From the NCBI GenBank assembly GCA_015233015.1, contig JADFYO010000021.1:1-51721 (forward strand): a DNA stretch of 51,721 nucleotides. Direction: 5' to 3'. Shown one piece after another: positions 9,225 through 47,128 of the stretch (the first letter of the stretch is position 1; each line of letters opens with the position of its first letter). The translations under genes and the position numbers were made by a program. The notes under the pieces are model-generated. The model was not told the DNA's origin. It was given only the letters and a program-made list of their open reading frames with translations, and searched no databases. This stretch comes from Nitrospirota bacterium (GTDB taxonomy: Bacteria > Nitrospirota > Thermodesulfovibrionia > Thermodesulfovibrionales > Magnetobacteriaceae).

Positions 9225-11806
9225 CTGTGCCCCTCCATTAAAATAGTTCCTGTTTCATTGACCAAATCCGCTGCCCCTCTGTAACCCACGCGCACCTTTG
9301 CCGTATATCCCAGGTGCTTGTGTACGGGAAAGCCCATTTGTAAGATGGGTATGTCCAATGCCTTTGCTATTGCCTTGCCATGTGAGTTCGTTATCAGCAG
9401 ATCAAATGCCCCTTTGATTGAATACATATCCCCTACGATTGTTTCATCGGCAACTACATGCCTGAGCCGTTCTGATTTATTTGCACAAACGGCAAGCTTT
9501 ATAGGCGTGCCCATTTCATAGAACAGTCTGGATAGCTGTATAAGGTGGTCGGTCTCCAGGGCGGCGCAAATGTGTTTGCCGCCAAAGAAATAATGTGCGT
9601 CACGTTGAGCGTCAATCAATATATTTCGCTGCCTCAGATACTGAGCTGGTATTGAGTTGCCGCTTATCAAACTAAGAGCAGTCATAAACCTGTCAATGTC
9701 TGCTAATGATGACAGTCCCCCGAAGACTTCATATTCGACGGCGCATAATGCCTTAATTTTTTTTGCAGGGGCCTCCATAACCGTGCCAATGGCTAATGTC
9801 ATCTCAGCCGCGGGCAGCTCGGCGGCCTCGTCTATGCTCATCCCTCCCGAGGTCAGAGGTGAAAATCCCCTGCGGCTTCCATCCAGAGACGAGAGGTCTG
9901 GCAGGGTTATGGCCGAAAGATGAAAGTCTCTGACGATGGCCTTTATCTCTGTGAAATCTCCGGGCGTCATGTGCGGCCCGATAAGCAGGTTTATCAGTCC
10001 TTTTTTTATCCCGCACGGTCTTGGTGCATTTTCGGCAAGCGCCCCGACTGTTTTTTCAACCGCCAGTGCGTAGCCGTCCTCTAAAGAACTCATGTAGTCC
10101 GGTGTTGATACATGTACAATGTCAACCCCGTGAAGTGTCTTTTTCAGATTGCCTGTGAGGCTGGCCACGTCGTCTCCCTTTAATTCGGTAAGCCCCGTGG
10201 TAATGACCGCTATCAGGCGTGGTTTTTGTTTTTCAAATATGTCGGTTATTGTTTCAGATAATCTCTGTTCGGAGCCAAGCACCACATCTTCTGTGAAGAG
10301 TTTGCTGCCCTGAAGGGAAATCGGTTCTTTGAAATGGTTTGTCAGGAGCACCTTTGTCAGAAACGTACATCCCTGCGCCCCATGAATAACCACAGCCGCT
10401 TTGTCTATTCCCTGAAAGGCAAGTGCTGCCCCCACACCCATCGAGTGTTCAAGTGGATTTACCACAACGCCTCTTGCCGCGACCTCTGTCTTTGCGATAT
10501 ACTCTTTCGGCTGTCTTTTAGTGTAGAATTTAATAGTATTGGAGATATCCCCCGCAAGATTAATAAACCCGTCATACCCGGCGTAGGCGCTGTGTCTTTC
10601 CTGATTTACGTCTATGAATGGGATGCCCTCTTTTGCCGCGAGATAGAAATTCCTACCGCCGGCCACAATGATGTCCCCTTGTTTTTCCTTTATCAGTCTG
10701 ACGAGATTTTTTGGCGATACATCCTCATATAGCGGGGCGTCCTCGCCTAAGATCACCTTCATCTTACTCTCATCCTCATAAGTGCTCTTTTTCGTTCCTA
10801 CTGCGGCGACCTCTATGCCTAAGTCCATGAGCGCGGTAATCAATGACCAGCTCTTTACGCCGCCGGTATAGAGCACCGCCCTTTTGCCTGACAGCGAGGG
10901 AAGCCCCTTAAGCGCAGTACTTACCCTTCTTTCATGTCTTACAATGACCTGCTCTACCTGTTTCATAAATTGCACAGAGTTATCCAATGACGAGGCAATT
11001 GTCCTCAATGCCCCGGACATCGATGTCTTGCCATAGAACGAGACCTCGACATAGGGAATGCCATATCTCCTTTTCATCTCGACGGCGACGTTAATCAGCG
11101 CACGACTGCACACCACTACGTTTAACCTTGCCCTGTGGGCATATGTTATCTCGTCAAAGCAGGCGTTGCCGGTTATTCCCGATAGAATTCGTATCCCGGC
11201 CTCTTTAAAGACCGGCTCAACGAACTCCATATCACCGGCGATGTTATACTCGCCTATCAGGTTTATATCATAGGGGGTGAGATAAGGAGCCTCTCCCGTG
11301 CCTATGACATAATCAAGCAGCGCCTCGCCGGCTATCCGGTTGCCGAGATTTTTTGGCCCTGCAAAGCCGGGGCTAATCACAGGGATTACCCTTAAAGACA
11401 GTTCATTCGCCGCTTTTTTGCATACACTCTCTATGTCCTCGCCTGTCAGGCCGCTTACGCATGTGGCATATACGAATATAGCAGCCGGTTGAAACTCATC
11501 CCGGCACGCCCTTATCGCCTCATAGAGCTTTCCTTCGGCACCGAATATGATGTCCAGCTCTTTCATATTGGTACTAAATCCCATGTGATGAAAATGCCCC
11601 TTATCGGACACTGCGCCCCGTCCTTCCCATGTGTTTGACGTGCAGCCGACTGGGCCGTGTACGAGATGCACCGCGTCCGCTATGGGCGCAAGCACTATCA
11701 TAGCGCCGTCGAAGGCGCAGGACTCACCGCCTCTGGACTTGCACACCTTGTGCCGGTCATCAGTCTGGCAGCCGTCTGCCGTAAGTTCATCTAAGGTTTT
11801 AGGCAT
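9221..11806 (-). CDS. nifEN: NifE-NifN fusion, FeMo-cofactor scaffold
   Basis: One 861-residue frame covers both halves of the NifEN scaffold, on which NifB-co is matured to FeMo-co. Residues ~1-430 are NifE: cluster cysteines in GESCAFDGA (C30), GPVGCTSNTWEGRG (C55) and ATCVSGLTGEDIE (C116), and VCSRAL (C233). Residues ~445-861 are NifN: NPLEHSMGVGAALAF, HGAQGCTFLTKV (C480), LTELKGDDVASL. The join is a short linker around residues 430-447 with no stop or frameshift. AGGAGC precedes the ATG, 8 bases after nifK. In most diazotrophs these are two genes. Confidence 0.93.
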   Translation of the reverse strand: MPKTLDELTADGCQTDDRHKVCKSRGGESCAFDGAMIVLAPIADAVHLVHGPVGCTSNTWEGRGAVSDKGHFHHMGFSTNMKELDIIFGAEGKLYEAIRACRDEFQPAAIFVYATCVSGLTGEDIESVCKKAANELSLRVIPVISPGFAGPKNLGNRIAGEALLDYVIGTGEAPYLTPYDINLIGEYNIAGDMEFVEPVFKEAGIRILSGITGNACFDEITYAHRARLNVVVCSRALINVAVEMKRRYGIPYVEVSFYGKTSMSGALRTIASSLDNSVQFMKQVEQVIVRHERRVSTALKGLPSLSGKRAVLYTGGVKSWSLITALMDLGIEVAAVGTKKSTYEDESKMKVILGEDAPLYEDVSPKNLVRLIKEKQGDIIVAGGRNFYLAAKEGIPFIDVNQERHSAYAGYDGFINLAGDISNTIKFYTKRQPKEYIAKTEVAARGVVVNPLEHSMGVGAALAFQGIDKAAVVIHGAQGCTFLTKVLLTNHFKEPISLQGSKLFTEDVVLGSEQRLSETITDIFEKQKPRLIAVITTGLTELKGDDVASLTGNLKKTLHGVDIVHVSTPDYMSSLEDGYALAVEKTVGALAENAPRPCGIKKGLINLLIGPHMTPGDFTEIKAIVRDFHLSAITLPDLSSLDGSRRGFSPLTSGGMSIDEAAELPAAEMTLAIGTVMEAPAKKIKALCAVEYEVFGGLSSLADIDRFMTALSLISGNSIPAQYLRQRNILIDAQRDAHYFFGGKHICAALETDHLIQLSRLFYEMGTPIKLAVCANKSERLRHVVADETIVGDMYSIKGAFDLLITNSHGKAIAKALDIPILQMGFPVHKHLGYTAKVRVGYRGAADLVNETGTILMEGHR

Positions 11807-38449: not shown

Positions 38450-38674
38450 ATGAAGAAATTGTTTGCAATGATTTTCTGCCTTGCAATGCTGGTATCTTTC
38501 AGCGCAGTGTCGTTTGCGGCTGATACCGCGCCTGCAGCCGGAGCCCCTGCTATCGACGCCCCTAAAGCTGATGACACAGCGGCGGTAAAGAAGGCCAAGA
38601 AAAGCAAAAAAGGCAAAAAGGCAAAAAAGAAGGCAGCGAAAGCAGCCGAAGAAAAACCAGTTCAGACGCCATAA
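38450..38674 (+). CDS. Small exported lysine/alanine-rich protein 1
   Basis: 74 residues. A clear Sec signal peptide (MKKLFAMIFCLAMLVSFSAVSFAA) has a likely cut after VSFA-A. The mature ~50 residues are Ala/Pro then Lys-rich (KKAKKSKKGKKAKKKAAK), with an acidic stretch in front and no cysteine. Mature product is low-complexity and strongly basic, so it might bind nucleic acid, phospholipid or anionic cell-wall polymers; nothing more can be said. AAAGGAGGTG precedes the ATG. Driven by the sigma-54 promoter at 38347. Confidence 0.85.
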   Translation: MKKLFAMIFCLAMLVSFSAVSFAADTAPAAGAPAIDAPKADDTAAVKKAKKSKKGKKAKKKAAKAAEEKPVQTP

Positions 38675-38703
38675 ATATAAACTAACTTAAAAAAGGAGAT
38701 AAC

Positions 38704-38904
38704 ATGAAGAAACTGATGACCGTATTAGTAGCAGCACTGTTCGCATTATCGATGACCAGCGCAGTATTCGCAGAAGACAAGGCCCCTGCAGCTTCCCCTT
38801 CCCCTGCCCCTAAGGCAGACGCTAAGAAGGACGAGAAGAAGGCAGCTCCTGCTAAGGCAGACGAGAAGAAAGCCGACGAGAAGAAGGCCGACGACAAGAA
38901 GTAA
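38704..38904 (+). CDS. Small exported lysine-rich protein 2
   Basis: 66 residues, 29 bases after the first exported protein and of the same design: signal peptide MKKLMTVLVAALFALSMTSAVFA, then an Ala/Pro linker and repeats of the type KADEKKADEKKADDKK (alternating Lys, Ala and acidic residues). Net charge is more balanced than in protein 1. AAAAGGAG precedes the ATG. The two share a signal peptide style and Ala-Pro linker, so they may have arisen by duplication. A terminator follows directly. Confidence 0.85.
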   Translation: MKKLMTVLVAALFALSMTSAVFAEDKAPAASPSPAPKADAKKDEKKAAPAKADEKKADEKKADDKK

Positions 38905-39329: not shown

Positions 39330-39359
39330 TTGACATCACAATGCCGATTGCATTAATAT
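39330..39359 (+). promoter_or_regulatory. Sigma-70-type promoter of the GTPase operon
   Basis: TTGACA (39330-39335), an 18-base spacer and TAATAT (39354-39359), about 50 bases before the ATG at 39411. Confidence 0.5.
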
Positions 39360-39410
39360 CTTACTATTGCGGGGTTTGGCAAATTAAACATAGGAGGGAC
39401 GGCAACAGGC

Positions 39411-39917
39411 ATGGACAATGGTTATTATGTTGACGTTGTAACGAAGAATATATTGTCGGCATTGTCTGAGCACATATCTGACGCCATATCTGACCAGCTA
39501 ATCGGCGTTGTGAAAAAAACAATGGCTCAGTTAGAGGCAAAACTCCTTGCGATGTTTGACGGTGCCGGTAAGGGCGTCAACGCCGAACAAATCGACGCCA
39601 TTGCTAAGACCGTAGAGGGTGGGCTGGCCTCGATTGTCTCAGAAATAAAGGCCTCGCTGGGTGAAAACAACTCGGCAGAGCTTGGGCAATTAAGGGCAGC
39701 GATTGCGGAAATGGGCGCTAAAATAGAGCGTATGGAGCGCTCCCTTTCCACGGCAAGAACAGACCAGGCCGAGATTCTCAAAATGATGCTCGAAGGCGAG
39801 CTTAGAAACGCCGAGGCTATGGCTGAGCGTGTTCACGGCAATAGGATGGAAATCGGGGAAAGATTAAAAAGGCTGAACGGGTTAATCGAAAGCGCGTCCC
39901 CGGCAGAGACAATATAA
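39411..39917 (+). CDS. Coiled-coil protein, first gene of the GTPase operon
   Basis: 168 residues, hydrophilic, almost entirely helical, without cysteines or membrane segments. After NGYYVDVVTKNILSALSEHIS comes a long heptad-like region (about 65-150; ELGQLRAAIAEMGAKIERMERS and ILKMMLEGELRNAEAMAERV). GGAGGGACGG precedes the ATG. The stop shares one base with the GTPase start (TAATG), so the two are coupled. I know no family. By context it is probably a partner or scaffold of the GTPase. Confidence 0.8.
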   Translation: MDNGYYVDVVTKNILSALSEHISDAISDQLIGVVKKTMAQLEAKLLAMFDGAGKGVNAEQIDAIAKTVEGGLASIVSEIKASLGENNSAELGQLRAAIAEMGAKIERMERSLSTARTDQAEILKMMLEGELRNAEAMAERVHGNRMEIGERLKRLNGLIESASPAETI

Positions 39918-42439
39918 TGGAATCCGAAGAGATAAAGATTAAAAACTTCCTTGGGAGTATGTCTGAAATAATCACCCGCCTTAAGGCATTGGGACACGAT
40001 CAGTTCGCTAACAGGATAAAGAACCTCGAGGCCAATATAAAGGATTTTTCCGTTCATACGATAAAGAGCGGCCTTGTCGGCATTACAAGCTCAGGGAAAT
40101 CCGCCGTCATGAATATCCTGCTTGGCACGGGGACGAAGATATTAAAGGAGCAGAGCAAGGCAACTACCAATATGCTCGTGTTCTGTTCCAGGTCAAAGGA
40201 GCAGCAGCTTGAGATAATATACGAAGACGGCAGGTCTGAAAAGACAACCGGCGGCAATGTCCTTGGCCCATCCATCTGGAAATATACATCGGAGGACGAA
40301 AACCCCGGCAATAAATACGGCGTTAAGTATCTCAAAATCGGTCTGCCCACGTTTATAATCGACGAGGACATGGAGCTTGCAGACACGCCCGGCCTTGACG
40401 CCTTCGGTCACAAGGAACACGAAGACCTGACCCTGCGCGAGTTCCTGCCTCAGGCTGATTTAATTATCTATCTGTCATCGATACGCAGCCCGATGAAGGA
40501 GGCAGACAGAAAGATACTCAACAAGGTAATGGACGCCGACCAGAGGATCGTCTTCGTACAGACCTGTAAGGGCGCGGTTGTGGAGAGCAGCTTAGCATCG
40601 GATGACGCTGAAGAGTCGATAGAGAAACGCCTCGATAAATACAGGGAAGAGTTCGAAAAACTCATCAGCCCATACTCGCGACTGAAAGACGCCCCTATCG
40701 TTCAGGTTGAAACGACATCCGCCGTTCATTATTTTAAAAATAACGACAAGGCGGCATGGACTGAGTCTGGATTTGAAGAGCTGGTTCACGTGATTAAGAG
40801 CGTTACGAAACAGCTGCAATATGAATATACCATCAAAAACCTGAAAAAAATTGTTGACGGCGTCAACGCCCTGACGACCCTCCTGATAAGCGCGGTCAAA
40901 GAAGAGGCCGACAAGAAAACCAGCATCGAACAGCTGATGAAGGCCGTCGAAAAACTGAAAAAATATGATGAAAGAATATTAAACACGAAAAACCAGATAG
41001 TCTCCATATGGAAAAAGAAGATAGACCCGGCAGGTATGTTCGCCGAGTTCCAGCACGAGCTGTCAAGGACATATTCATACCGCTATGAGTTTAACCCAAA
41101 ACACGATACCGAATTCATCCTCAAGGCGGACGCAATCAGTGAGAAGATGCACTCTATCAAGGCCAGTATGCTTGATAACCTCGATAACGCCCGCGACAAG
41201 TTCAAGGAATACTTCGACGATGTCGGCCTCGATGTAAGGCGTACCGATATTCAAAGCGGCTCGGTGAAGAGTTTTTATCTGCCGAATGTGCAAAAAAGGA
41301 GTGTGTCGGGGAAGTCCCTGCTGGCCTCCGGCAAGGACCTCACTGTGGAATACATCGATAAAACCAAATTTATCGATGAGCTTAAGGCGTCTATCGAAAT
41401 GTTTTTAGTGCCGCTTGCCGGACATCTGGATTGGTGGGACAAGACCGTAACGTTTTCGTTTGTCGAGCCGCTCTCAAAAAAGATTGCCGCGGTGGATGAC
41501 GATATTAAAAATATCGAAAAGGGCGGCGATTACAACGAAGAGCAGTACAAGAGACTGTCCGCCTTCAGCAAGGAACTCCATTACAGCGTCAAAGAGGTCT
41601 CCGCCCTGTGCAATATGGAATTCATAGAGCAGAAGTTTCCCGTTTACGGTAAAAAGAGAACCTATAAGAGGGAGAAAACCGGATTTATCAATATGTTCCT
41701 GCAGCTCGGCAGCCGCTACTACGAGGCATTGTTCCATAACTATTATATTCAGAAACTGGCCGGGTTTTCAGGGAAGAGCCACAAGTCAGTCGTCCTGATA
41801 GACCAGAACTTTGAATCGCAGATTAATTTTATCGACAAGCTGTTAAGGCTCGACGCCGACACCCTTGGCCGTATGCGCGGCCTGAAACCGCCATACGTGA
41901 TAAACCCTCAAAGTTCGGACACATTCCCCGAACAGCTCACGACAGACGGTGAATTCTCTGACAGTCTGACCTTCTATGTGCTTGGAAACGACGACGCATC
42001 GCATGATGCGGCAAACACACATCAACTCTTTGAGCGGGCAGACGTCGTGCAGCTTATCATAGACGACTTGCACAGGGTCGGGTCGGCCCTTGTCGATGTA
42101 GTGGAGAGAAACATATTTTTTGACAATATCGTAAAAAGACAGGACAAACTCCTTCTGGCATATCCGGGAGGCGCATATTTTCAAAAGGGCAGGCTGCACA
42201 TACTGGTAGATGAGGCAATAAGTGAAATGAACAAGATATTCGACGCCGGGGGCGTCCAGTGGTTTGTATATGAAGGGTATGAGGTAAGATATAGTTATTT
42301 CTACGATATAGTCTCGCAGGCGGCTGCCGATAATCTGCAGCCGGAGGATTGCATGAGGCAGTGGAAAGAACTGGGCGTACCGCTTGACGAGCCTTTTACC
42401 GAAGACATACTGCTGGAGCAATTCGCCGAAATTACATGA
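39917..42439 (+). CDS. Large dynamin-like GTPase
   Basis: 840 residues. The N-terminal G domain (residues ~45-310) has G1 GITSSGKSA (55-63), G2 TT at 83-84, and G3 DTPGLD (156-161), with a membrane/fragment-type LREFLPQADLIIYLSS segment. The canonical G4 (N/TKxD) is not visible; VFVQTCKGAV sits at its place, so base specificity may be relaxed or served differently. Residues ~320-450 are a long helical region (NLKKIVDGVNALTTLL, EEADKKTSIEQLMKAVEKL). Overall it resembles bacterial dynamin-like or YdjA/GTPase-of-unknown-function proteins. No membrane segment is evident. It lies between two coiled-coil genes. Confidence 0.75.
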   Translation: MESEEIKIKNFLGSMSEIITRLKALGHDQFANRIKNLEANIKDFSVHTIKSGLVGITSSGKSAVMNILLGTGTKILKEQSKATTNMLVFCSRSKEQQLEIIYEDGRSEKTTGGNVLGPSIWKYTSEDENPGNKYGVKYLKIGLPTFIIDEDMELADTPGLDAFGHKEHEDLTLREFLPQADLIIYLSSIRSPMKEADRKILNKVMDADQRIVFVQTCKGAVVESSLASDDAEESIEKRLDKYREEFEKLISPYSRLKDAPIVQVETTSAVHYFKNNDKAAWTESGFEELVHVIKSVTKQLQYEYTIKNLKKIVDGVNALTTLLISAVKEEADKKTSIEQLMKAVEKLKKYDERILNTKNQIVSIWKKKIDPAGMFAEFQHELSRTYSYRYEFNPKHDTEFILKADAISEKMHSIKASMLDNLDNARDKFKEYFDDVGLDVRRTDIQSGSVKSFYLPNVQKRSVSGKSLLASGKDLTVEYIDKTKFIDELKASIEMFLVPLAGHLDWWDKTVTFSFVEPLSKKIAAVDDDIKNIEKGGDYNEEQYKRLSAFSKELHYSVKEVSALCNMEFIEQKFPVYGKKRTYKREKTGFINMFLQLGSRYYEALFHNYYIQKLAGFSGKSHKSVVLIDQNFESQINFIDKLLRLDADTLGRMRGLKPPYVINPQSSDTFPEQLTTDGEFSDSLTFYVLGNDDASHDAANTHQLFERADVVQLIIDDLHRVGSALVDVVERNIFFDNIVKRQDKLLLAYPGGAYFQKGRLHILVDEAISEMNKIFDAGGVQWFVYEGYEVRYSYFYDIVSQAAADNLQPEDCMRQWKELGVPLDEPFTEDILLEQFAEIT

Positions 42440-42471
42440 AACGCCAATAAATAAAAAAGGGAGGCTTCGCC

Positions 42472-43521
42472 ATGGCAGAGATAGAGGGAACAGATGATTT
42501 CCAGCAGATGCTTACGAAGTTAAAACAACGGGTTAACAATATTGCAGCGGTTAAGGCCACAGTTGCAGCCCAGGACCCGGGGGGCGATGTCAGAGAGCAG
42601 CTGGACAGTCTTACCGGGATGTTAAAAAAGGGGTTTACAGCCCTGCTGGATGATAAAGCGGGCGAACTCGAAATGCTTGGTTCTATAGCTGCCGAGGCAA
42701 CCGCCGGTAAAAAGGCTGGGGACACAACGTCAGCCGAACTGAAAAAAGAGATTACTTCCACACTCAACGCCCTGTTGTCTGACTTTAATAGCCGCCTCGA
42801 TGGGTCGTTGAAGGACAATATCAGAAACGTCTCCATGTCCGTAAAAGATGAGATAGCCGCAGTTAAATCCTCGATACCATCTATTGACGTTAACGCTATC
42901 GGCAATAAACTCAACACCATAGGCAGCGCGGTAGAAACCCTCACTAACACCATGAAACAAACTGTCGAACAGATGAAGAGCGCATCGTCAAGCGCAGCCG
43001 CGGCCGCCACTATAGATGAGAACGCCGTGAAGAGCCTTATTAATGATATAAAACTAACCGTCGGCGACTCTATTAACACAAGGCTTGAGACTGCCCTCGC
43101 CCCGCTGCGAGGTGAGATCTCGTCCCTCAAGGCCGTAATCACCACATTGAAAATGGAACCCGCATCTTCTGGCGGCGTGGATTTTACAAAGAGTTATATC
43201 GAGACCATTCAAAGCGAATTCAGCGGTGAGATAAAAGAAATCAGGGCACTTGTCGAAAAGGAAAACAATATGGTCAAGTCACAGACCCTTGAATTTCTTA
43301 GTTATATCACTGACAAGATAATCGACCTGCACGGGAAAATAGACAGTGTTCTCCGACCGGAAGACGCAGTGGCGGCCAGTCAGCCCGGCCGGGTGGTCTC
43401 ACCCACTATATCGTCAAGGATAAACGAAGAAATCGGCAACGGTGTGCAGCGGGAAATCGCCCCCGTCATGGACGGCCTCGTACATATAATAAGGTTCTTG
43501 GTTGCCCTGTCGAAGAGGTAA
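42472..43521 (+). CDS. Coiled-coil protein, last gene of the GTPase operon
   Basis: 349 residues, acidic to neutral, mostly helical with no cysteine or membrane segment. Repeated helix-breaking pieces (SIPSIDVNAIGNKLNTIGSA and NTRLETALAPLRGEISSLK) suggest a rod of several coiled coils. The C terminus ends with a hydrophobic amphipathic helix (VMDGLVHIIRFLVALSKR) that could touch the membrane. GGGAGGC precedes the ATG, 32 bases after the GTPase stop. No family recognised. Similar composition to the first gene suggests related roles, perhaps ends of one complex. Confidence 0.8.
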   Translation: MAEIEGTDDFQQMLTKLKQRVNNIAAVKATVAAQDPGGDVREQLDSLTGMLKKGFTALLDDKAGELEMLGSIAAEATAGKKAGDTTSAELKKEITSTLNALLSDFNSRLDGSLKDNIRNVSMSVKDEIAAVKSSIPSIDVNAIGNKLNTIGSAVETLTNTMKQTVEQMKSASSSAAAAATIDENAVKSLINDIKLTVGDSINTRLETALAPLRGEISSLKAVITTLKMEPASSGGVDFTKSYIETIQSEFSGEIKEIRALVEKENNMVKSQTLEFLSYITDKIIDLHGKIDSVLRPEDAVAASQPGRVVSPTISSRINEEIGNGVQREIAPVMDGLVHIIRFLVALSKR

Positions 43522-43589
43522 TTCCATTTCTAAATCATTAGTGCATTAATAATCAGTGCTTAGCGTATTTATGAAATATCTTAGTCTGT

Positions 43590-43659
43590 CATTCCGGCTT
43601 GTCCAGAATCTGTCTCTACACATCCTCAAGCCGAAGAAGATTCCGGACAAGCCGGAATG
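43590..43659. repeat. Inverted repeat, 22-base arms
   Basis: CATTCCGGCTTGTCCAGAATCT (43590-43611) and its complement with one mismatch (43638-43659), loop 26 bases. It lies 70 bases after the GTPase operon. Such CATTCCGG-type palindromes are common dispersed intergenic repeats; it could also act as a transcript end. The rest of the 355-base gap to the restriction gene shows no gene. Confidence 0.75.
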
Positions 43660-43876
43660 AAGACAAGGCAAGAAAGGTGGTGACAATTTTTTTTGTCGCG
43701 GAGTGAGATAAAATATATTATTATACGTATGATTTAGAAATAGAATAATATAACAAGGTTATAGTACCTGTGGTGCAGGTTCTATTCGGGGCGCTATATG
43801 AATTTGCCGGCCTACATTTGAAGGGATTCGTTTCGTCCAGTTGTAGATATGCAATTTAACCCAATAAAGTGCCTTA

Positions 43877-46800
43877 TTAGGATTCAGTGGTTGCTGTAAT
43901 ATGGGCATTCAAAATATTATCTCCGAGCGTTCGTAGTAGAGCAACGATAGTAGAGCGTTTCATCGCGGAAGGTTCGCTGTGCGCTTGCTTACATAGTGCC
44001 GACAGTTGTTCATGCTGTGGATTACCTACATTGAATAGGGGGAGATTCATGTGTTTGAATATATCTCCAACCTGAATTGAAATATTGTGGCTCTCAACAA
44101 ACTCCTTCACGGTCGTAGAATTTAGTAAGCCGCAAAGATAATAAGCAGGTTTCTCGACCTGAAAATCCACAAAAAATATCTTGTGATCTGGCACATAGGG
44201 CCGCTTGCCAACCAGTGGTACATTCGCTGATGCTGCCACAGCCGAACAGAAATTCCCAGATTGTTCTGCCCATACCACCTTAAATGGTGCAAAAGTATAT
44301 TCTCCAACATTGTACACCGCATAATATGGGGCATTTGGCATACGTTTAGAGTAAGTGGAACGTGCCTCTAACAGTCTCTTGTACGCATGGAAATACTTGC
44401 GCAGCTTTGGTTGATTCTTATCGATATCAGTCGCCGATGCCTCATAATCAGCACGCCTGATGCCTATATTCGGCACCAGTGTGAAGAGGCCATGGGTAGG
44501 GTTAACGTAGCAAGACTCGAAGTCAGAAGCACCCTTCAAAAGAGGATAAAGATACGTTGGTTCAATCCAGAATGTCTTAGCCTTTCCGATGTCTGTCCGT
44601 CCTGCGTCTGGCCGTGTTGTCACCTCAACTATCTGGTTAGTCGTATTCTGATCAGTTACCTGTAGAAAGTATAGCGCATTTAAATCGGTTGTTATACCCT
44701 TTCGACCGTGTACCCATTTGCAAGGTCTGCTTAAAGCACGAATGACCTCAAAGCGACCATTAGTGAGAATTGCCCATGGACTACCATCACCGCCAACAGG
44801 GTTAGCTTCCTTGTGAGTAATCTTTACCCGGGCCAGCGCCTCACTTTTCGAAAGCTGCGGTGGTATCGCCTTAGCGAATCCTGGGGCAGCATCCCAAACC
44901 CTGTAGAGAACGGGATATTTTGGCTTAGTTGTCTGCTTATGGAATACCGCCACCGCCGTTTTGTTTGCAGCGTTTGGAAAGGGCTTTAACGATTTCAGGT
45001 CATCTACTGACAGCGGCGAGAGCCGTTGTGTTCCATCAATATTAAACCGCCGAAATCCCTCGGATGAAGGGGACTGAAAATGCGTTTGGGTGATGACAAA
45101 CACAAGGGTACCGCCAGACTTTAGCCATTTATCTGCTGTTGTATAGGTAATCATCCCTGATATGTCCAATTCGTTACCACCATGGTGAGGGGTACTCGAA
45201 AATATCTCGTAACCCTCGCACATAGGTTTGACGCGCTCCCGATATGCGGCTGGCAGTTTTGACCAGCGCACCCAAGGCGGATTACCAACAATCACGTCAA
45301 ATTCGCCAGCAGTTGCAGACCAAAAGAAATTCCGTACGATGCGGAACCAGATGCCATTCCAATTTTTGCGATGCAATCCTATAACCTGGTTGTATGTCGC
45401 GCGCAACGGTGCGTCCCAATCATTCAATTGCGTTGTATTCAGGACGCTTCGTTGTTCCAAGGCGGTACAGCAGTCATTATATTCAACGTTACTCTCAACT
45501 TTCTCTCCCATCACCTTAAACACACGATCAAGTAACATCCGGTTGAGTGCTAAGTCAGCCGGTATCGTGATTTTGAGATTCGCCGCTTGGCTGCCGATGG
45601 AATATTCGACGACATTTTCATCCTGATTGGGGTTCCGCGCTGGAGAATATACAGCGTCGGCCAGCAACACTGGAACCTCGAATGATGTTCCTGGAACAGC
45701 GCGCAGCAAATCGGCCACAGCAATCAGGAAGTTCGTACGTGACGCCTGTACAGCCAAAGGATTTAGGTCGAAACCCCATACTGTATCGGCAAGCATTTTC
45801 AAGGTAGCCTCAGGTCCAATACCCTTTGCAGTTGCCGCCGTCATCTTGCGCTGCAATGTCTCCCACAAAAAAGAGCCGGAGCCACAAGTCGGGTCTAACA
45901 CCCGAACTGACAACCAGTCCTTTACCTCTGCACAATCCACGGTGTAATCCACCAACCAATCCGGTGTGTAAAACTCACCCAAACTTTTACGCAGGGTCTC
46001 CGGCACTAAGTTTTGGTAAAAATCACGCAGCACATCCCGAGGGCTTTCAAGGCGGTCTGTTCGGTAAAGCGATAACTGAGCCAAAATATTCCTAAGTGCG
46101 TCGGCAATAATTATCATGTCATCGCCAACGCAAACATCAAGATACCAGCTAAAAATAGCTTCTTCCACAAAGCCCTTAATGCCAACAGCATCAAAAAACC
46201 CTCCATGTTCAATGTCGCGGTCCATATGCTCAATCAAAGAGATATCATCTGTCAGAGCGGCCAACTCCTGGGCAAATGCAGTGCCGGAAGCTAAGCCATG
46301 AGCGGCCACGATTTCTGCTGCCAGCAATTTGATAAGCAATGAATTGTACGTATGAATTACGAAGAGACACGCGGGGATTTGGTCATCAATTTTACCCTTG
46401 AATTTGAATTTCAAGGTTTCGTTGATGTTATACAACTGTTCCTTGGAGAGGTCGGCAACTTGGCCATATAAGGTACGCCACTCCTCAAAGAGCATACATA
46501 CCTTATGGTGTTTGTTGCCGTTCAACGCTTCGGACAACGCATCCGCAAGGGCCTGCATCATCAGAATACCCCTTGTCGATGAATGCCCAAAATCAACTAT
46601 CAGGGTATCGGCTTTGACTGAACGACGGTATGATCGCAAACACGCTTCGACAACCATGCCAAACGTTATCGGTGAAACTGGAATTAAGTGCTGCGGGACT
46701 ATGTCACCCTCTAGCACTTGAGCAAAGCACAGATGTTTGTCGTCAATGGCAATGCCAATGTAATCGCTTTCTGGTACTTTGTCAGAGCGGGCCGCCCGTT

Positions 46801-47128
46801 GGATGTATGGCAAAAGGCGATCATTCATAGCCTCTACAAAGGCTGGACTATTCTTTTTACCGGTAAATTTACCAGGCCCCTTAAACTCTATAATAACGTT
46901 GTTGTAAGACAGGTCGCGCCTTCCCTGCTCTGCGTCAAACTCGATACCTGTTGCCTTTTCAAGGGCAGTCACCCAAGATAAACGAATTTCTTCTTCATTT
47001 TTACATTTTGCCAAGCGTGTCTTCAATTTTTCAAAGATAGCCTGCTGCGATGCTGGGCGCTTCATGTCTTTTGCCTGTGTCTTCGTATGGTTAGCATTTT
47101 GCAGCAAGACTCCCTTATTCTTTAGCAT
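43877..47128 (-). CDS. Type IIG-like restriction-modification enzyme
   Basis: One 1083-residue chain with nuclease, methyltransferase and target-recognition parts. Residues ~60-90 suggest a PD-(D/E)xK nuclease (D72 in RRDLSYNN, then IIEFKGPG with E81-x-K83). A helical region leads to the N6-adenine methyltransferase: FYTPDWLVDY, motif I VLDPTCGSGSF (411-420) and motif IV GNPPWVRW (615-622). The C-terminal ~400 residues match target-recognition regions (PTYLYPLLKG, then the late KIFFVDF and YLCGLLNSTTV). The enzyme would methylate and cut its own site. A second ATG at residue 22 is possible. No separate specificity subunit is nearby. Confidence 0.85.
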   Translation of the reverse strand: MLKNKGVLLQNANHTKTQAKDMKRPASQQAIFEKLKTRLAKCKNEEEIRLSWVTALEKATGIEFDAEQGRRDLSYNNVIIEFKGPGKFTGKKNSPAFVEAMNDRLLPYIQRAARSDKVPESDYIGIAIDDKHLCFAQVLEGDIVPQHLIPVSPITFGMVVEACLRSYRRSVKADTLIVDFGHSSTRGILMMQALADALSEALNGNKHHKVCMLFEEWRTLYGQVADLSKEQLYNINETLKFKFKGKIDDQIPACLFVIHTYNSLLIKLLAAEIVAAHGLASGTAFAQELAALTDDISLIEHMDRDIEHGGFFDAVGIKGFVEEAIFSWYLDVCVGDDMIIIADALRNILAQLSLYRTDRLESPRDVLRDFYQNLVPETLRKSLGEFYTPDWLVDYTVDCAEVKDWLSVRVLDPTCGSGSFLWETLQRKMTAATAKGIGPEATLKMLADTVWGFDLNPLAVQASRTNFLIAVADLLRAVPGTSFEVPVLLADAVYSPARNPNQDENVVEYSIGSQAANLKITIPADLALNRMLLDRVFKVMGEKVESNVEYNDCCTALEQRSVLNTTQLNDWDAPLRATYNQVIGLHRKNWNGIWFRIVRNFFWSATAGEFDVIVGNPPWVRWSKLPAAYRERVKPMCEGYEIFSSTPHHGGNELDISGMITYTTADKWLKSGGTLVFVITQTHFQSPSSEGFRRFNIDGTQRLSPLSVDDLKSLKPFPNAANKTAVAVFHKQTTKPKYPVLYRVWDAAPGFAKAIPPQLSKSEALARVKITHKEANPVGGDGSPWAILTNGRFEVIRALSRPCKWVHGRKGITTDLNALYFLQVTDQNTTNQIVEVTTRPDAGRTDIGKAKTFWIEPTYLYPLLKGASDFESCYVNPTHGLFTLVPNIGIRRADYEASATDIDKNQPKLRKYFHAYKRLLEARSTYSKRMPNAPYYAVYNVGEYTFAPFKVVWAEQSGNFCSAVAASANVPLVGKRPYVPDHKIFFVDFQVEKPAYYLCGLLNSTTVKEFVESHNISIQVGDIFKHMNLPLFNVGNPQHEQLSALCKQAHSEPSAMKRSTIVALLRTLGDNILNAHITATTES

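Follow-up and report, generated by a model that had tools for sequence, protein, structure and literature searches.

The window analyzed here is a stretch of 51,721 nucleotides of contig JADFYO010000021.1 from a Nitrospirota bacterium (GenBank assembly GCA_015233015.1). It carries three consecutive plus-strand genes (Table 1), the first two of which overlap by a single base (TAATG), with a gap of 32 bases between the second and the third. An earlier reading of the same DNA, made from the letters and a list of open reading frames and referred to below as the sequence-only reading, had described genes of 168, 840, and 349 residues in this arrangement, and its coordinates proved to be exact. It had also placed one promoter ahead of the operon. 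A sigma-70-like site is indeed present at this position and matches the consensus in 10 of 12 bases, which is weak evidence for a promoter because such sites are about twice as common in this region as in shuffled sequence (16 observed versus 7.5 expected). In codon-level comparisons of five or six related genomes, all three open reading frames were found to be under purifying selection, with dN/dS values of 0.06 to 0.10 for gene 2, 0.10 to 0.28 for gene 1, and 0.11 to 0.29 for gene 3, and all three are therefore real genes. No conserved flanks of the window-type copy were seen across the genus. Two small Ala/Lys-rich ORFs that look secreted (74 and 66 aa) lie between clpX and the operon (window positions 38450 to 38904), and a 23-nt inverted repeat (TCATTCCGGCTTGTCC...) at positions 43589 to 43660, shared with the G003 loci and absent from the other fetched loci, is possibly a lineage-specific repeat element.

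Table 1. Genes, predicted domains, and sequence features of the locus (window coordinates)
Feature	Position	Strand	Basis or comment
Sigma-70-like promoter, TTGACA-18-TAATAT	39330..39359	+	Consensus scan, 10/12 matches
Gene 1	39411..39917	+	ORF, 168 aa, coiled-coil partner
Gene 1 conserved N-terminal motif, residues 5-27	39423..39491	+	Candidate docking peptide
Gene 2	39917..42439	+	ORF, 840 aa, dynamin-like protein (DLP)
N-terminal G domain, aa 46-300	40052..40816	+	Alignments; VIA matches to G domains
G-domain motifs: G1 GITSSGKS aa 55-62; ATTN aa 82-85; G3 DTPG aa 156-159; degenerate G4 VQTCKG aa 214-219			
Basic/hydrophobic loop, aa 441-480, RRTDIQxxSxxSFxLPNVQKK	41237..41356	+	Between two long stalk helices
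C-terminal predicted pseudo-GTPase domain, aa 588-840	41678..42436	+	Structure prediction
Gene 3	42472..43521	+	ORF, 349 aa, coiled-coil protein, genus-specific
Gene 3 amphipathic C-terminal helix (QREIAPVMDGLVHIIRFLVALSKR)	43447..43518	+	Hydrophobic moment 0.55-0.59

The product of the middle gene is a dynamin-superfamily protein, for which membrane binding and GTP-driven remodeling are predicted. It matches the Pfam Dynamin_N family above the gathering score (5.7e-14) and the solved BDLP structure by profile comparison (6.9e-10). The fold search that had been suggested for this protein was run with Foldseek, and its best matches were IniA (1.8e-13) and BDLP (2.5e-11), along with LeoA, Cj-DLP, and mitofusins, in agreement with the original description of a dynamin-like GTPase. 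The G1 and G3 motifs noted in the sequence-only reading, as well as the ATTN motif, are invariant among 23 relatives, and the absence of a canonical G4, noted there too, holds for the main clade, in which the corresponding position reads VQTCKG in place of TKxD. The Sumerlaeota relative carries a diverged G4 at this position (TQAD), so the loss of G4 is probably a derived trait. A helical neck and trunk behind the G domain appear both in the AlphaFold2 model (for the full-length chain, a moderate one, with a mean pLDDT of 74.6 and pTM of 0.47) and in the Foldseek and VIA structure matches, the latter spanning residues 1 to 567. In the same model, the loop at residues 441 to 480 is a low-pLDDT segment between helices 394-436 and 482-535; Arg442, Asp444, Gln446, Pro456, and Lys460 of this loop are invariant. 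Its position is comparable with that of the disordered lipid-binding segment of Cj-DLP2 (PMC6104087), and the loop is a candidate membrane-binding tip. No membrane segment is evident in the module, and lipid binding is a putative property. In G018 (L045:7565-8140), the DLP gene is split near residue 107 by an apparent frameshift, which could be a sequencing error or the mark of a pseudogene.

The C-terminal part of this protein had been described as a long helical region, which fits the models up to about residue 562; residues 588 to 840 are instead predicted to form an alpha/beta domain. Modeled alone with 23 sequences, this segment gave an AlphaFold pLDDT of 91.9 and pTM of 0.89, and its predicted element order (beta1-alpha1-beta2-beta3-alpha2-beta4-alpha3-beta5-alpha4-beta6-alpha5) is, in our reading, that of a G domain. 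The matches listed by VIA were all GTPase-type G domains (including EHD ATPases), the best among them being BDLP (Z 9.8, rmsd 3.3, 160 residues) and EHD4 (Z 9.7), and EHD4 was the sole Foldseek match under 1e-3; Z scores near 9 call for caution here, because the PDB is rich in G domains. The P-loop position of the C-terminal domain reads like LIGQDYETQIDF, and both the GKS and the TKxD expected after beta5 are absent from all 23 sequences. Sequence searches linked the domain neither to the N-terminal G domain nor to any solved chain, and the pseudo-GTPase claim is therefore a structural one. From AlphaFold models and structure comparisons with middling Z scores, residues 588 to 840 are predicted to adopt a G-domain-like fold and to represent an apparently dead pseudo-GTPase. 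The domain could be aligned in all full-length DLP relatives, including the distant one from Sumerlaeota; among 120 relatives, it was not found outside these DLPs, and the literature searched held no description of a pseudo-GTPase domain in any other bacterial dynamin.

A homolog of gene 1 adjoins 24 of the 26 assessable DLP copies, both gene orders being represented in this tally, which was compiled by hand from several locus comparisons. Such a neighbor is lacking for the G012 second copy and for one copy in the 56%-complete genome G017. The DLP gene comes first, ahead of gene 1, in Sumerlaeota and at the second, divergent copy of G016, so the pairing has survived rearrangement. The gene 1 homologs vary in length from 143 to 1124 aa and have in common a C-terminal coil and the N-terminal motif Y(Y/F)(I/V)DxVTKxI(I/L)xxLS, in which Tyr6, Asp8, and Leu18 are invariant in 21 homologs and in the Sumerlaeota homolog. 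The longest one, a solitary 1124-aa protein of G012 (L041:1510-4884), is encoded about 2.4 kb from the normal (first-copy) pair of that genome and contains apolipoprotein-like amphipathic repeats (PF01442, 3.2e-21, below the curated cutoff). The weak Pfam and PADLOC matches that genes 1 and 3 gave (apolipoprotein, SF-assemblin, phasin, and LmuB) were set aside, since they fall below the respective cutoffs and are of a kind common with amphipathic helices.

Gene 3 was detected in 6 of the 7 genomes of the window's genus and in none of the 33 others. The amphipathic helix that the sequence-only reading had proposed for the end of this protein is well conserved, as nearly all of the final 24 residues are identical in 7 orthologs. 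In G001 (L143:9329-10650), only a 70-aa remnant of gene 1 is left and an intact gene 3 comes immediately after it, the intervening DLP gene being absent, which means that gene 3 can outlive its DLP; in G005, the trio is distributed across two contigs that can be joined by a 55-base overlap. The same reading had given the GTPase two dedicated partners and named co-occurrence of the triplet as a check. This check showed that the three genes are not a constant set: gene 1 alone accompanies the DLP, the conserved unit consists of these two genes, and the three-gene unit as such is ruled out by the genus-specific distribution of gene 3. A helix resembling the end of gene 3 (LAEVMRFLLVLSE; E value of 0.007, one genome) was seen at the C terminus of a long coiled-coil protein of G000 (C97:9413-9499, L150), whose gene apparently shares an operon with that of a VWA-like protein.

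The host draft genome (3.78 Mb, 99% complete) contains the magnetochrome family PF18509 on contig C22, in a series of genes homologous to those of the G199 magnetosome cluster. Among named records, the nearest relatives of the DLP come from "Candidatus Magnetominusculus," followed by those from Magnetobacterium and Magnetocorallium, so the host is a magnetotactic member of Nitrospirota, and its genus is probably of the Magnetominusculus type, judging from these relatives. A motif scan of approximately 85,000 species, each represented by one genome, returned 22 loci, all but one of them in magnetotactic-type Nitrospirota or in a Desulfamplus, the remaining one belonging to a distant member of Sumerlaeota; the scan required exact motifs and would therefore miss diverged relatives. 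Profile searches of 396 genomes of Nitrospirota, 40 of Sumerlaeota, 242 of Desulfobacterales, and 395 of Desulfobacterota revealed no further full-length carriers, the other matches being confined to the G domain. DLPs with at least 39% identity were found only in genomes that have magnetosome genes or whose family has such genes, and their carriers include three lineages from outside the host family. Taken as a proxy for magnetosomes, PF18509 was detected in 16 of the 19 host-family genomes (the 3 negative ones are 56 to 75% complete) and in the outlier carriers G146, G199, and G200; searches for it in the pair-bearing member of Sumerlaeota, which is non-magnetotactic and whose related pair is distant, were negative. 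Outside the host family, the DLP is present in 1 of 6 PF18509-positive and 0 of 174 PF18509-negative relatives (Fisher P = 0.033), and the sole carrier among the 242 Desulfobacterales is one of the 14 that are PF18509 positive (Fisher P = 0.058), an association built on few independent events.

Physical linkage of the pair to a magnetosome gene cluster was seen in one genome, G199, in which a single contig carries both, and 8.5 kb with signaling genes separate the pair from the mamK end of the cluster (the contig matched in G402 is the same one). In the single-contig genome G014, the pair and the magnetosome genes are 340 kb apart. In no case was the pair found inside the conserved man1-mad26 cluster, as defined by the published gene list (PMC8353452); apart from the G199 case, it is located on other contigs or at the distance seen in G014. 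In addition, the DLP is absent from several PF18509-positive genomes, including G008 (100% complete), G010, G011, and others, and is therefore an accessory protein: it neither performs a core magnetosome function nor is universal in magnetotactic bacteria.

In the DLP tree, the window-type proteins form clade a, whose members sort according to genus in the host family, and the second copies and the proteins from G146, G199, and Desulfamplus belong to a looser set; the deepest placements depend on long branches. The Desulfamplus protein groups with the Magnetocorallium second copy (support of 96/96). Its contig is only 3 kb long and has low coverage, but contamination is argued against by its tetranucleotide composition, which fits the Desulfamplus genome best. 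Taken together, the grouping and the composition suggest transfer of the DLP between magnetotactic phyla.

The reading that we favor, with a confidence somewhat short of even, is that of a two-component membrane-remodeling module of magnetotactic bacteria, consisting of a DLP of the BDLP/IniA/mitofusin type and gene 1, with gene 3 as an extra rod. It draws on features evident at the sequence level, namely, the DLP motifs, the DLP-gene 1 pairing, the near-restriction of close DLP relatives to magnetotactic hosts, and the C-terminal helix of gene 3, and on two features predicted by the models, a helical stalk and a pseudo-GTPase domain at the C terminus of the DLP. In such a module, GTP would drive dimerization of the N-terminal G domain and opening of the stalk on the membrane, as in BDLP and IniA, the latter being capable of GTP-dependent fission in vitro (PMC6715688). 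The pseudo-G domain could provide an in-chain regulatory or dimerization surface, replacing the second subunit of the paired bacterial dynamins. The gene 1 product, we infer, would dock on the DLP by its constant N-terminal motif and act as a spacer or tether of freely variable length, and the gene 3 product may be a second rod, attached to the membrane through its C-terminal helix. The target membrane would most likely be an internal or cytoplasmic one of importance to magnetotactic cells, such as that of magnetosome vesicles or sulfur globules, or an invagination. We hypothesize that the DLP-gene 1 module acts in the magnetic organelle. In its boldest form, which we regard as unlikely, the hypothesis makes the DLP the first dynamin assigned to a magnetic organelle in bacteria. 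An active GTPase and a pseudo-GTPase would be fused in one chain and paired with a coiled-coil tether of tunable length, and the assembly would shape, pinch, or position the membranes of magnetosomes (or of sulfur globules) in magnetotactic bacteria of deep-branching lineages, having been passed from one magnetotactic phylum to another.

The same fold relationships could also point to general envelope maintenance, with a role in repairing or remodeling the plasma membrane of stressed cells such as has been proposed for IniA, which, together with BDLP, has the closest fold. The concentration in magnetotactic bacteria would then result from inheritance within the family combined with transfer between cohabiting species. 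Such a role is consistent with clade a tracking the host-family genera, with the distant pair in the non-magnetotactic Sumerlaeota, and with the lack of the DLP in several complete magnetotactic genomes. It leaves unexplained, however, why all three close relatives detected beyond the family sit in genomes that bear magnetosome genes, and no envelope-related family stands out among the neighboring genes. We consider this explanation rather unlikely, if still the strongest competitor of the membrane-remodeling module proposed above.

The 90 neighbor genes of the pair encode 18 response-regulator, 13 histidine-kinase-type ATPase, and 5 GGDEF domains, and both G199 and the genus of the window have a related kinase (56% identity) and response regulator (47%) close to the pair. 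These numbers could reflect a signaling platform, in which the GTP state of the pair controls a signaling protein, as in E. coli, where the partner of the soluble dynamin-like GTPase RdcA, RdcB, activates a diguanylate cyclase (PMC6510439). The high counts are due in part to the repetition of orthologous loci, however; the loci within the genus are not independent, the hosts may simply be rich in such genes, and the window copy has no signaling gene alongside. With no homology between gene 1 and RdcB, and with the DLP resembling RdcA over no more than a portion of the G domain, a signaling role appears improbable. One DLP pair in G146 has a small protein on either side (L067:6274-6786 and 11128-11628); the two are similar, have lengths of 166 and 170 aa, and are probably the two DUF697 proteins counted among the neighbors.

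Protection against phages, raised in the sequence-only reading, fared worst: defense of the Eleos (LeoA/LeoBC) kind could be read into the best PADLOC matches (LeoA, 7.2e-10; LeoBC, 1.8e-7), the varying flanks, and the type IIG restriction enzyme-methyltransferase gene that adjoins the operon in convergent orientation (window positions 43877 to 47128; PADLOC, 4.6e-234), but it is very unlikely, as these LeoA/LeoBC matches are weak and centered on the G domain, the module pairs one DLP with a coiled coil where Eleos has two DLPs, clade a is vertically inherited, and that enzyme is the only clear restriction gene among the 90 neighbors. A defense island was rejected for lack of enrichment among these neighbors, and a viral, phage, or plasmid origin was rejected as well, since no relative was found on such records apart from one plasmid G-domain match at 31%. 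Both the Eleos-like and the RdcA/RdcB-like roles are less supported than membrane remodeling.

The locus thus contains a two-gene dynamin module that is real, to our knowledge unnamed, of a predicted new domain architecture, and concentrated in magnetotactic bacteria; as the sequence-only reading had anticipated, no described system was found that matches the whole set. Like IniA of Mycobacterium and BDLP of Nostoc, the DLP combines an N-terminal G domain with a helical stalk, but it differs from both in the predicted additional C-terminal pseudo-G domain, in the degenerate G4, and in having a coiled-coil partner rather than IniB/IniC or a second DLP. The paired bacterial dynamins LeoA/LeoBC of E. 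coli (Eleos) and Cj-DLP1/Cj-DLP2 have a related stalk architecture (PMC6104087, PMC4159319). In those pairs both partners are GTPases, whereas the gene 1 product is a rod that lacks a G domain, and the DLP has its predicted pseudo-G domain within its own chain. The two-dynamin arrangement of Eleos was not seen, the DLP neighbors being coiled coils without a recognizable G domain, and the DLP scores 22 bits against the NCBIfam LeoA/HP0731 model, which has a cutoff of 325 bits. If the prediction is correct, a dynamin with a built-in pseudo-GTPase domain would offer a new answer to the heterodimer logic that bacterial dynamin pairs follow. The RdcA/RdcB (YjdA/CrfC-YjcZ) system of E. coli similarly couples a soluble dynamin-like GTPase with a non-GTPase operon partner (PMC6510439). 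Membership in that system is ruled out: only 76 G-domain columns of RdcA align with the DLP, the C-terminal domain does not align, and gene 1 has no match to PF13990 (RdcB), profile comparison being negative as well. No paper linking a dynamin to magnetotactic bacteria was found among the open-access papers searched. The Mad20, Mad23, Mad25, and Mad26 proteins of Desulfovibrio magneticus RS-1 are soluble, largely coiled-coil proteins of the magnetosome chain (PMC12748827) and, by description, resemble the products of genes 1 and 3 in being soluble coiled coils of deep-branching magnetotactic bacteria; the Mad network has no dynamin, and genes 1 and 3 lie outside the man1-mad26 cluster. For the making and remodeling of magnetosome membranes outside Alphaproteobacteria, a dynamin-type module concentrated in magnetotactic bacteria offers a concrete candidate.
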